Made by a program: the position numbers and the translations under genes. Below the pieces are notes generated by a model. It saw nothing but the letters and a program-made list of their open reading frames with translations. It did no database searches and was not told where the DNA came from. A stretch of 64,000 nucleotides of DNA, from positions 1 to 64,000 of the forward strand of contig NZ_WUWN01000005.1 of assembly GCF_009846865.1 (NCBI RefSeq), in the 5' to 3' direction. Each line of letters starts with the position of its first letter. Position 1 is the stretch's first letter. Positions 27,469 to 44,867 of this stretch are shown piece after piece. Source of the stretch: Puerhibacterium puerhi (GTDB lineage Bacteria > Actinomycetota > Actinomycetes > Actinomycetales > Cellulomonadaceae).

Positions 27469-28671
27469 TCACGCCCAGGGGTCGAGCACCACCTTGATGC
27501 AGCCGTCCTCCTTGTGCTGGAACATCCGGTAGGCCTCCGGCGCCTGCTCCAGCGGCAGGCGGTGCGTGCGCAGGTCGAGCACGCCGAGCGGGTCGGCCGG
27601 GTCGGTCACCAGCGGCAGGATCTCGTCGGTCCAGCGGCGCACGTTGGCCTGGCCCATCCGCACCGTGAGCTGCTTGTCGAACAGCTCCAGGAGCGGCAGC
27701 GGGTCCTTGGCCCCGCCGTAGACGCCGGACAGCACCACCGTGCCGCCCCGGCGCGCCGCGTCGATCGCCGTGTACAGCGCGGCGAGCCGGTCGGTGGCGG
27801 CCCGCTCGGCGAGCGGCGCGGCCACGGCGTCGGGCAGGAACCCGACGGCCTTCTGCGACATCTCGGCGAGCGGCGAGCCGTGCGCCTCCATGCCGACGGC
27901 GTCGACGACGGCGTCCGCGCCGCGCCCGCCGGTGCTGGACCGGACCGCGTCGGCCACGTCGCCGTCGCCGGCGTGCGAGGCGTCGAGCACCTCGACGCCG
28001 TGCCGCGCCGCCATGGCGAGGCGCTCGGGCACCAGGTCGACGCCGATGACCCGGCCCGCGCCGCGCTGCAGCGCGATCCGGGCGGTCATCTGCCCGACGG
28101 GCCCCAGGCCCAGCACGGCGAGCGTGCCGCCGGGCGGCACCTCGGCGTGCGCGACCGCCTGCCACGCGGTGGGCAGCACGTCGGACAGGTACAGGTAGCG
28201 CTCGTCCGGCTCGCCGTCGTCGGGCACGACGATCGGGCCGTACTGCGCCTGCGGCACGCGCAGGTACTGGGCCTGCCCGCCGGGCACCGAGCCGTACAGG
28301 CGGGTGTAGCCGAACAGCGCGCCGCCCTTGCCGTGCGCGCGGACCTGGGTGGTCTCGCACTGCGACTGCAGCCCGCGGGTGCACATCCAGCAGTGGCCGC
28401 AGGAGATGTTGAAGGGCACGACGACGCGGTCGCCGACGCGCAGCCGGCCGGCCGCCTCGTGCCCGACCTCCTCGACCACGCCCATGGCCTCGTGGCCGAT
28501 GACGTCGCCGGGATCCATGAACATGCCCAGCACGCCGTACAGGTGCAGGTCGGAGCCGCAGATCGCGGTGGAGGTGACGCGCACGACCGCGTCGGTGGGC
28601 TCGAGGACCTGCGGGTCGGGCACGTCCTCGACGGTGACGGTCTGGCGCTTGCGCCAGGTGAGAGCTCGCAC
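27469..28671 (-). CDS. Zinc-dependent alcohol dehydrogenase (MDR family)
   Basis: A 400-residue medium-chain dehydrogenase. The catalytic zinc ligands are C38 (ICGSD) and H60-E61 (GHEAMG), and the structural-zinc cysteines are C91, C94, C97 and C105. The NAD(P) loop is LGLGPVGQM. Length and the SCGHCWMCTRG segment place it with glutathione-independent formaldehyde dehydrogenase-like enzymes, often annotated as threonine/formaldehyde dehydrogenase. It lies 79 bp downstream of the second sugar ABC operon on the same strand and could be its last gene. Confidence 0.9.
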   Translation of the reverse strand: MRALTWRKRQTVTVEDVPDPQVLEPTDAVVRVTSTAICGSDLHLYGVLGMFMDPGDVIGHEAMGVVEEVGHEAAGRLRVGDRVVVPFNISCGHCWMCTRGLQSQCETTQVRAHGKGGALFGYTRLYGSVPGGQAQYLRVPQAQYGPIVVPDDGEPDERYLYLSDVLPTAWQAVAHAEVPPGGTLAVLGLGPVGQMTARIALQRGAGRVIGVDLVPERLAMAARHGVEVLDASHAGDGDVADAVRSSTGGRGADAVVDAVGMEAHGSPLAEMSQKAVGFLPDAVAAPLAERAATDRLAALYTAIDAARRGGTVVLSGVYGGAKDPLPLLELFDKQLTVRMGQANVRRWTDEILPLVTDPADPLGVLDLRTHRLPLEQAPEAYRMFQHKEDGCIKVVLDPWA

Positions 28672-28721: not shown

Positions 28722-28751
28722 GGCCTCGGCCTCGGCCTCGGCCTCGGCCTC
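28722..28751. repeat. 6-bp tandem repeat (GGCCTC)x5
   Basis: Five exact copies of GGCCTC end in the stop codon region of the sugar permease gene. The array lies between permease and alcohol dehydrogenase genes. Confidence 0.9.
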
Positions 28752-29673
28752 AGCCCTTGGACCCCGTGGTGGAGATGCCCTGGACGAAGTACCGCTGGCC
28801 CGCGAAGAACAGCAGGATCATCGGCACCGTGGTGATCACCGAGGCGGTGACCACGACCTCCCACTGGGACTCCCCGCCGGGACCGAACTGGTCGATGACG
28901 GCCTTGAGCCCGCGCGGGACCGTGAACGTCGCGCTGTCCTGCAGGTAGACGAGGGGGCGCATGAGGTCGGTCCACGACGCCTGCGCCTCGAACAGGAACG
29001 TCAGCACCATCGCGGGCTTGCACAGCGGCACCGCGATCCGCCAGAACAGCGTCCACTCGCTCGCGCCGTCGAGGCGGGCGGCCTCGAACGGCTCGCGGGG
29101 CAGGCCCAGGAAGAACTGCCGCAGCAGGAAGATGTAGAAGGCGCTGCCGAAGAGGTTGCCGGCCCACAGCGGCACGTGGGTGCCGACCAGCCCGAGCTGG
29201 TTCCAGATGAGGAAGGTCGGGATCAGCGTCACCGCGCCGGGCAGCATCATCGTGGCCAGCACGAGGCCGAACAGCGGTCCGCGAGCGCGGAACCGGTAGT
29301 GGGCGAAGCCCCAGGCCACCAGGGCGCTGGACACCGTGACCGCGGTGGCGGCCAGCGCGGTGACGACCAGCGTGTTGCCGAGCCACAGCGCCAGGGGCGC
29401 CGACTCCCACACGGTCAGGTAGTTCTGCAGCGTCGGGTGCGCCGGGACCAGCCGGTTGTCGAAGACCTCCGATCGCGGCTTGAACGACGCCGACAGCAGC
29501 CACACCAGCGGGTAGACGAACACCACCGTGAGGGCCACGAGCGCCGCGACGACGACGCCGCGCAGCCAGCGGCGCCGGCGCCGGTCGTCGCCGCGGACGG
29601 CGCGGGGCGGGGGCATCGGGACGCTCGCGGCGGCGGCCGGCACCGTCGTCGTGCCGGTGGCCGGAGCGCTCAT
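28750..29673 (-). CDS. Sugar ABC transporter permease (MalG type)
   Basis: A 307-residue permease with an Arg-rich N-terminal tail, six helices, SASFKPRSEVF after helix 1 and the EAA loop FEAARLDGASEWTLFWRIAVP (about 198-218). It is the downstream permease of the second sugar importer. Its ATG overlaps the stop of the second of two duplicated 8-codon reading frames (29670-29719), an unusual arrangement. Confidence 0.92.
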   Translation of the reverse strand: MSAPATGTTTVPAAAASVPMPPPRAVRGDDRRRRRWLRGVVVAALVALTVVFVYPLVWLLSASFKPRSEVFDNRLVPAHPTLQNYLTVWESAPLALWLGNTLVVTALAATAVTVSSALVAWGFAHYRFRARGPLFGLVLATMMLPGAVTLIPTFLIWNQLGLVGTHVPLWAGNLFGSAFYIFLLRQFFLGLPREPFEAARLDGASEWTLFWRIAVPLCKPAMVLTFLFEAQASWTDLMRPLVYLQDSATFTVPRGLKAVIDQFGPGGESQWEVVVTASVITTVPMILLFFAGQRYFVQGISTTGSKG

Positions 29674-29714
29674 CGCTCGGTCCCTTCCGCGGTCATCGCT
29701 CGGTCCCTTCCGCG
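29669..29714 (-). repeat. Tandem 23-bp duplication carrying a ribosome binding site
   Basis: Two copies of a 23-bp unit (29669-29691 and 29692-29714) differ by one base. Each contains, on the minus strand, GGAAGGGA followed by 7 bases and ATG. Confidence 0.92.
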
Positions 29715-29719
29715 CTCAT
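29670..29719 (-). other. Two chained 8-codon reading frames between permease genes
   Basis: The upstream permease stop overlaps an ATG at 29719 that opens MSAEGTER-stop. That stop overlaps the ATG at 29696, which opens MTAEGTER-stop. That stop overlaps the permease ATG at 29673. All three junctions are ATGA and each ATG after the first has its own GGAAGGGA site 7 bases upstream. Whether the peptides are made is unknown; the likely effect is on translational coupling between the permeases. Confidence 0.7.
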
Positions 29720-30702
29720 CGCTGATCCCCCTCGTAGTAGACGAGCCGGCGCGAGACGAGCAGCTGCACCGCCGTGACCAGCATGATGATGACGAACAGC
29801 AGCCAGGCCAGCGCCGAGGCGTAGCCCATGTGCAGCTCCTGGAAGCCCTCGCGGAACAGGTAGATGACGTAGAACAGCGCGGCGTCGTTGGAGTACGTCG
29901 AGTTGCCCGCCCCGAAGTAGGCGGAGTAGGCCTCGGTGAACATCTGGAACGCCGCGATCGTGTTGACCACCGTGACGAAGAACAGCGCGCCGCTGATCAT
30001 CGGCAGCGTGATGGTCCAGGTGCGCCGCCACCAGCCCGCCCCGTCGACGCGGGCGGCGTCGTGCAGGTCCTGGGGCACGTCCTGCAGCGCGGCCAGCAGG
30101 ATGACCACCGCCGACCCGACGCCCCACAGGCTCACCAGCGCCAGGCCCGGCTTGATCCACACCGGGTCCGTGGTCCAGCTCGGCCCGTCGATCCCGAAGA
30201 CCGCCAGCACCTTGTTGACCAGGCCGTACTGGCCGTTGAACAGCATCAGCAGCAGCACGCCGACGGCGACCGGCGGGGTCATCTTCGGCACGAAGAACGC
30301 GGTGCGGAAGAACCCGCGGGCGCGCCCGGCCTGGTGCAGCAGGAGCGCCAGCGCCAGCGCGACGACCACGTAGAGCGGCACCTGCAGCACCGTGTACTGC
30401 AGCGTGTTCCACAGCGCGAGGCGCACCTGCGGGTCCGCCGCCATCCGGCGGTAGTTGTCGAGCCCCACGAACGTGGGGTCGTTGAGCACGTCGTAGTCGG
30501 TCAGCGACAGGTACAGGCTGTAGAGGATCGGCCAGGCGGTGAAGACCAGGAACCCCACGACCCACGGGCTGACGAACGCCAGGCCGGCGTTGCGCTCGTG
30601 CCGCGCGCGGGCGGTGAGCCGGCCGCGCGGGGCGCGGCCGGCGCGGGTGGTGCCGGGGCGCGTGGGCAGCCCCGGCACCACCGCGCCCGGCACGGTGCTC
30701 AC
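29716..30702 (-). CDS. Sugar ABC transporter permease (MalF type)
   Basis: A 328-residue permease. The basic tail (to about residue 38) is followed by AFVSPWVVGFLVFTAWPILYS (helix 1) and an EAA loop LHDAARVDGAGWWRRTWTITLP (about 220-241). GTG 30702 overlaps the binding-protein stop (GTGA). It ends in ATGA with the first mini reading frame. Confidence 0.92.
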   Translation of the reverse strand: MSTVPGAVVPGLPTRPGTTRAGRAPRGRLTARARHERNAGLAFVSPWVVGFLVFTAWPILYSLYLSLTDYDVLNDPTFVGLDNYRRMAADPQVRLALWNTLQYTVLQVPLYVVVALALALLLHQAGRARGFFRTAFFVPKMTPPVAVGVLLLMLFNGQYGLVNKVLAVFGIDGPSWTTDPVWIKPGLALVSLWGVGSAVVILLAALQDVPQDLHDAARVDGAGWWRRTWTITLPMISGALFFVTVVNTIAAFQMFTEAYSAYFGAGNSTYSNDAALFYVIYLFREGFQELHMGYASALAWLLFVIIMLVTAVQLLVSRRLVYYEGDQR

Positions 30703-44191: not shown

Positions 44192-44237
44192 CCCGGCACC
44201 TCTCCCGGACACCTCCCGGCACCTCTCCCGGACACCT
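44192..44237. repeat. Two exact tandem copies of a 23-bp unit
   Basis: CCCGGCACCTCTCCCGGACACCT... repeated at 44192-44214 and 44215-44237, in the gap between the LuxR-HTH and Nudix genes. No coding function seen. Confidence 0.9.
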
Positions 44238-44335
44238 CGGACGGACACCGCCGCCACGGCGCACGACCACCGGTCCCGAGGCCCTGCGGCGGGACGCGCC
44301 GCCGCGGCCGCACCGCGCGTGCGGCGCCCGGGTGA

Positions 44336-44806: not shown

Positions 44807-44820
44807 GCGCCCGCGCCGAC

Positions 44821-44867
44821 AGGGCCTCGCTGCAGGGCCTCGCTGCAGGGCCTCGCTGCAGGGCCTC
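44821..44867. repeat. 13-bp tandem repeat, 3.6 copies
   Basis: AGGGCCTCGCTGC at 44821, 44834 and 44847, with a partial fourth copy to 44867, in the gap after the Nudix gene. Confidence 0.92.

Follow-up and report, generated by a model that had tools for sequence, protein, structure and literature searches.

A 23-bp tandem array with two chained 8-codon ORFs at the junction of two ABC-transporter permease genes in Puerhibacterium puerhi

Organization of the permease junction

We analyzed a 64,000-nucleotide stretch of the Puerhibacterium puerhi draft genome (NCBI RefSeq assembly GCF_009846865.1, contig NZ_WUWN01000005.1, positions 1 to 64,000; hereafter the window) that encodes two ABC-transporter inner-membrane permeases (PF00528) in succession on the minus strand (Table 1). 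The two permeases presumably function as a pair. Permease 1 begins with GTG in a plain GTGA overlap with the stop of the ORF upstream, and its 3' end reads ...GAG GGG GAT CAG CGA TGA, in which the last A of CGA and the stop codon form the first of three ATGA motifs. From this stop (29718–29716), the minus strand passes through the two mini-ORFs MSAEGTER and MTAEGTER to the ATG of permease 2 at 29673, where the third ATGA combines the stop of mini-ORF 2 with the start of permease 2; a −4 overlap was thus found at each step.

The underlying array occupies 29666–29723 (58 bp) and was reported by Tandem Repeats Finder with a period of 23, 2.5 copies and a 94% match, the two full 23-bp copies being identical except at one base (ATGAGC/ATGACC). 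An earlier note on this DNA had described a 23-bp tandem duplication at the junction of two sugar permease genes and a relay from permease stop to permease start through ATGA overlaps, and we confirmed both, the duplication base for base in its coordinates, frames and overlaps. The same note had found it striking that the relay is kept although 23 is not a multiple of 3. This is unremarkable: since ATGA sits at a fixed place in a unit whose length is 2 mod 3, each mini-ORF ATG is in frame with the next TGA, so that an ATGA-bearing unit needs only a length of 2 mod 3 to relay, which is one length in three, and once the first unit bridges, every extra copy relays for free.

Table 1. Features at the permease junction of the window
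Feature	Position	Strand	Remark
Permease 1 (BPD_transp_1)	29716..30702	-	Pfam PF00528, scanned as a partial ORF; C-terminal ...YYEGDQR
Native SD-like site GAGGGGGA in the permease 1 end	29726..29733	-	Now precedes mini-ORF 1
Mini-ORF 1, MSAEGTER	29693..29719	-	ATGA overlap with the permease 1 stop
46-bp insertion (2 x 23), absent from the congener	29675..29720	-	Alternative placement by the aligner, 29665-29710
GGAAGGGA SD-like site for mini-ORF 2	29704..29711	-	Spacing 7 nt
Mini-ORF 2, MTAEGTER	29670..29696	-	ATGA overlap with mini-ORF 1
GGAAGGGA SD-like site for permease 2	29681..29688	-	Spacing 7 nt
Permease 2 (BPD_transp_1)	28750..29673	-	Pfam PF00528
Zinc-type alcohol dehydrogenase	27469..28671	-	Next gene, presumed operon

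The chain comprises three modules of a Shine-Dalgarno (SD) site and an ATGA, the first of which, GAGGGGGATCAGCGATGA, corresponds to the native permease 1 end; in the congener described below, its SD-like site GAGGGGGA precedes permease 2. The earlier note placed GGAAGGGA 7 nt before the later ATGs, where we also located both sites, but it overlooked the SD site of the first mini-ORF. Using the anti-SD given by the 16S 3' end pattern found in the window's genome, the duplex energy was −10.7 kcal/mol for the native site and −6.2 kcal/mol for each new GGAAGGGA site, compared with a median of −7.4 kcal/mol at 94 other −4 junctions of the genome and −3.0 kcal/mol at random positions. No in-frame ATG, GTG or TTG lies between the preceding in-frame stop and the permease 2 ATG at 29673, and an in-frame GTG at codon 11 and ATG at codon 20 are possible later starts. 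A special RNA structure was considered and rejected, as the 121-nt junction folded no better than its shuffles (z 0.34; z 0.69 for the 76 nt of the congener). A scan of 29500–29900 with sigma-70 promoter and terminator consensus sequences, the only types that it covered, returned neither.

Other repeats were seen in the window. A GGCCTC hexamer is repeated 5.7 times at and behind the permease 2 stop (28722–28755), where the congener is shorter by 15 bp, so that extra repeat sequence stands at both junctions of permease 2. Two perfect tandem repeats, of 23 bp in 2 copies (44192–44238) and of 13 bp in 3.7 copies (44820–44867), lie where no gene was called.

Permease junctions in related genomes

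The nearest relative among the genomes compared, which is the only other one of the genus and has the junction sequence of Isoptericola variabilis JZ7, encodes a permease 2 with 92% identity. Its junction reads GAGGGGGAGCAGCGGTGAGCGC, with 0 units and a direct GTGA overlap. The two loci are 91% identical over 3715 aligned positions, and the four-fold sites show differences at 44 of 191 positions for permease 2 and at 42 of 171 for permease 1. Besides smaller indels, the largest insertion in the window's copy is the 46 bp that make up two units, whose exact placement is ambiguous because its ends are repeated. The earlier note had proposed comparing the junction in relatives and had named a single unit with identical coupling as one outcome that would speak against it; the comparison returned the same direct coupling with zero units, so the single-unit case did not arise in its literal form.

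We then read the junction in the best match of each of the 64 genomes, among 221 of the family, that matched permease 2 at E<=1e-85. Direct −4 overlaps accounted for 39 junctions (28 ATGA and 11 GTGA) and direct −1 overlaps (TGATG) for 23, with relays in the remaining two. The 23 matches with TGATG junctions show at most 58% identity and may be paralogous systems; among the 38 matches with a permease 2 of at least 66% identity, 36 junctions were direct −4 overlaps and two were relays. Outside the family, 34 of 396 sampled genomes of the order matched, and all 28 that were new could be read: 17 junctions at −4, 9 at −1, and two with gaps of 1 and 2 nt.

In the combined set of 92 junctions, from which paralogous loci (L011–L015) and weak named hits (L070–L075) were excluded, 88 were direct −4 or −1 overlaps (56 at −4) and two had the gaps of 1–2 nt. 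Long inserts were found in the other two, those of the window and of Cellulosimicrobium cellulans JZ5, and both are exactly bridged. Further named records, after exclusion of 24 rows whose junction sequence had already been seen, added seven distinct −4 junctions and one 21-nt gap without a bridge, in a Chloroflexia MAG (L068) with 51% identity. Among the 49 plasmid records that matched, none had one place covering 80% of the query. In Xylanimonas oleitrophica (L070), a decayed locus keeps a fused permease 2 remnant (residues 120–195 and 287–307), and permease 1 was not found in the stretch examined; the locus is therefore uninformative on the junction.

The second long insert, read in a genome (G137) that shares its junction sequence with C. 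cellulans JZ5 (L056), is 47 bp long and contains a 16-codon mini-ORF, MSGAAVRGAAVDGADR, which bridges the permeases through an ATGA at one end and a GTGA at the other; its SD-like sites score −9.0 and −5.8 kcal/mol. This insert is independent of the window's. Compared across the period of 47, its copies agree in 19 of 28 positions, as well as do 2 of 94 other junctions, so that the JZ5 copies may represent an older duplication. The same 47-bp mini-ORF insert was also seen at the permease junction of a further locus (L032).

Origin of the unit and genomic background

The 19-mer core of the unit has two exact, adjacent copies in the 3.9-Mb draft genome and three other matches, each with 3 mismatches. 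An origin of the unit elsewhere was considered, and a search of the draft genome found no source. The unit was present in 4 of the 80 loci examined, all four of which cover the window's own junction. Its upstream half resembles the native SD region; as 7 of 94 other −4 junctions do so equally well, descent of the unit from the native junction is plausible only.

We assessed how often such relays arise in 464 kb of the genome. Single-step relays through a mini-ORF numbered 7 among 144 gapped pairs, against 8.2 expected from shuffles, whereas two-step relays numbered 2 including the window's, against 0.24 expected; these pair counts, like those of the co-directional junctions below, are approximate since the gene finder was our own codon-usage heuristic. 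The other two-step case lies at 111170 on contig C1, with a gap of 162 nt. As single-step relays occur at chance level, we rejected relay geometry, taken alone, as evidence of function. A looser count of 14 relays in 284 co-directional pairs, higher because any in-frame start was accepted, was superseded by the stricter one. Tandem arrays are common in the same 464 kb (65 Tandem Repeats Finder rows, some overlapping, with a period of at least 12 and a match of at least 90%).

Across 1212 co-directional junctions of five genomes, five have a nearby similar copy of their RTGA junction, and only that of the window chains into the downstream gene through mini-ORFs. Two of the others, at 66329 on contig C1 of the window's own genome (12 bp) and in G126 (48 bp), are −4 junctions with an offset of 0 mod 3 and an in-frame N-terminal repeat downstream, and the remaining two, both in G144, have offsets of 92 and 64 and form no chain into the downstream gene. 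Tandem copies were not enriched at gene stops (8 of 1212, vs 28 of 1212 random positions) in a scan that accepted only copies reaching upstream of the stop and did not pick up the array of the window itself; none of these eight cases was at a −4 or −1 junction.

Further repeat features were noted. At C1 66329 (L123:6329), about four copies of the 12-bp GTGACGCCGGAC lie exactly at the −4 junction and encode a VTPD repeat; the downstream protein begins VTPDVTPDVTPDVTP, has several in-frame GTG starts and looks like a response regulator, these points being read by eye. In G144, similar 20-bp tandem arrays (CCGAGGTAGCGCAC...) stand just behind gene ends about 84 kb apart (L186 near 10656 and L190 near 14332) and are possibly a dispersed intergenic repeat.

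Interpretation of the array

The array is known from one genome, and we conclude that it is real, rare and derived in the window's lineage. The reading that we favour, with some confidence, is that of a tolerated local insertion or duplication at a coupled junction that bridges itself. As the relatives show, the permeases were ancestrally joined through a stop/start overlap of 4 nt, the SD site lying within permease 1. A 23-bp piece that extends from an SD site to an ATGA overlap was then inserted in this lineage, as the alignment with the congener shows, and presumably duplicated in place. The stop of each copy doubles as the next start, and given a length of 2 mod 3, the gap opened by the insert bridges itself. 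A ribosome could pass from the end of permease 1 to MSAEGTER, MTAEGTER and permease 2, restarting at −4 nt each time, as the geometry allows.

From the published distance dependence of coupling (see below), an unbridged gap of 42 nt between permease 1 and permease 2 should be harmful. By their position, the mini-ORFs restore the −4 distance at every step and would act as a bridge if translated. If coupling of the permeases is under selection, the junctions that persist would mostly be gap-free or self-bridging, and the finding that both long inserts among the 92 junctions are exact bridges fits such survival of self-bridging inserts, although two cases are no proof of selection: the chance of a suitable frame is about one in three per independent insertion, and finding both of two inserts bridged may be fortuitous, with odds of about 1 in 9 on the frame alone. 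The abundance of tandem arrays in the genome and the in-frame repeats at the two −4 junctions with offsets of 0 mod 3 favour this reading. Counting against it are the chance level of single-step relays, the lack of enrichment of tandem copies at gene stops, the unbridged 21-nt gap of the Chloroflexia MAG, the coupling cited for much longer gaps and the possible later starts of permease 2. In all likelihood the array is nearly neutral, though it may somewhat lower the output of permease 2. Of the two options in the earlier note, tuning of the permease ratio and a recent neutral duplication, it is the latter that fits best, given a congener that lacks the 46 bp at 91% identity and only one other long insert in 92 junctions.

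We weighed several alternatives against a tolerated, self-bridging insertion. Permease 2 could start de novo from its own GGAAGGGA or from a later start, the mini-ORFs being incidental and rarely or never translated. A well-spaced SD-like site in each unit, the chance level of single-step relays and the later in-frame starts are all consistent with this, but GGAAGGGA is moderate on the energy scale given above, the overlap is kept in nearly all junctions read with gaps of 1–2 nt in two more, and both long inserts are exact bridges; on balance, we regard independent initiation as unlikely. It is somewhat less probable, in our judgment, that the array acts as a copy-number rheostat, in which the permease 2:permease 1 ratio depends on how many relay units are present, each step losing some ribosomes, and slippage among 0, 1, 2 or 3 units lets a population tune that ratio. 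Near-identical units, with 1 difference in 23, do permit changes in copy number, the new units bring weaker SD sites than the native module, and the permeases presumably act as a pair, yet any unit occurs in only 2 of the 92 junctions and a permease pair usually favours a fixed ratio. A ratio-tuning role for the array is possible, but its most elaborate form strikes us as doubtful, namely a ladder of serial reinitiation with three −4 restarts via two 8-codon ORFs, in which slippage of the 23-bp rungs would provide a non-mobile, evolvable dial for the subunit ratio and bridging mini-ORFs would have arisen twice at this junction.

Two further explanations appear very improbable. The architecture and the 2-mod-3 length are those of the 77- and 53-bp MIRUs (mycobacterial interspersed repetitive units), as expected if a MIRU-like mobile element had been inserted at the ATGA junction, but the unit is not interspersed: beyond its two adjacent exact copies the next matches carry 3 mismatches, and the loci that contain it all cover this one junction. 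An assembly or sequencing artefact might be suspected in a draft genome of 94 contigs represented by one record only, but one base distinguishes the copies and the array is embedded in a contig of 157 kb between intact flanking genes.

The junction lends itself to a clean test of serial reinitiation in nature, with near-identical 23-nt rungs and a zero-rung congener whose surrounding sequence is 91% identical. A simple rule is suggested as well: an insert at a coupled junction is retained when it is 2 mod 3 in length and brings an SD site plus RTGA. The window (23), C. cellulans JZ5 (47) and two published MIRU lengths (77 and 53 bp) all fit this rule, which is testable across genomes.

Comparison with known systems

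The −4 termination-reinitiation junction (ATGA/GTGA) is the type present in 56 of the 92 junctions read; the window differs in needing three such steps through two 8-codon ORFs. A study of gene pairs (PMC10666635) reports that gaps of 22–23 nt abolished or nearly abolished coupling at native pairs in Haloferax and that in Escherichia coli a gap of 38 nt cut coupling by 80–90% in two pairs and completely in a third; it also cites other studies in which genes 73 to several hundred nt apart were still coupled. In another study (PMC6728339), removal of the SD site left reinitiation substantially lower in four of five E. coli pairs.

Short ORFs ahead of a gene are known from both synthetic and natural settings. 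In bicistronic designs and nfORF (short nonsense ORF) boosters (PMC13255528), an nfORF with an internal SD site near its stop boosts the following gene, most strongly when it has both a start and a stop. The window shares with these the short ORF, the internal SD site and a start near the stop of the short ORF; the boosters are synthetic, with one ORF before a reporter, whereas the window has a natural series of two ORFs between genes. In axe-txe (PMC8708949), two mini-ORFs likewise precede an operon gene, and inactivating them lowers its translation, whereas expression rose by 30% when the minigene leader was deleted entirely; unlike the mini-ORFs of the window, these minigenes are very short (mg2 has two codons) and form no chain of −4 overlaps. 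Among the papers listed by literature searches, which covered mainly openly accessible journals, there was no direct precedent for a duplicated ribosome-binding site with small ORFs or overlapping genes or for a minicistron relay, nor any account of a 23-bp relay array that is not mobile.

The closest likeness is to MIRUs, which a 2025 review (PMC12548453) describes as short and apparently mobile repeats whose insertion at a start codon leaves an internal ORF coupled at −4 nt, a coupling that likely spares expression. The senX3-regX3 junction contains three 77-bp MIRUs in H37Rv and two of 77 bp and one of 53 bp in CDC1551, and promoter activity has been reported for this MIRU region (PMC4213456). 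The earlier note knew of no described system like the window's junction; this does not stand, as MIRUs place a −4-overlap ORF at start codons (PMC12548453) and senX3-regX3 carries three of them (PMC4213456). Like MIRUs, the units of the window are intergenic within an operon, contain an ORF joined to the flanking ORFs by −4 overlaps and have lengths of 2 mod 3. MIRUs differ in being longer, dispersed and apparently mobile, whereas the window's unit is 23 bp long and confined to one locus, with no dispersed copies, and the promoter activity at senX3-regX3 has no counterpart in a sigma-70-like promoter within 29500–29900 of the window. MIRUs are interspersed, and only the two adjacent copies lie within fewer than 3 mismatches of the 19-mer core; we therefore do not class the array as a MIRU. 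By analogy, the array would function as a MIRU locus in miniature.
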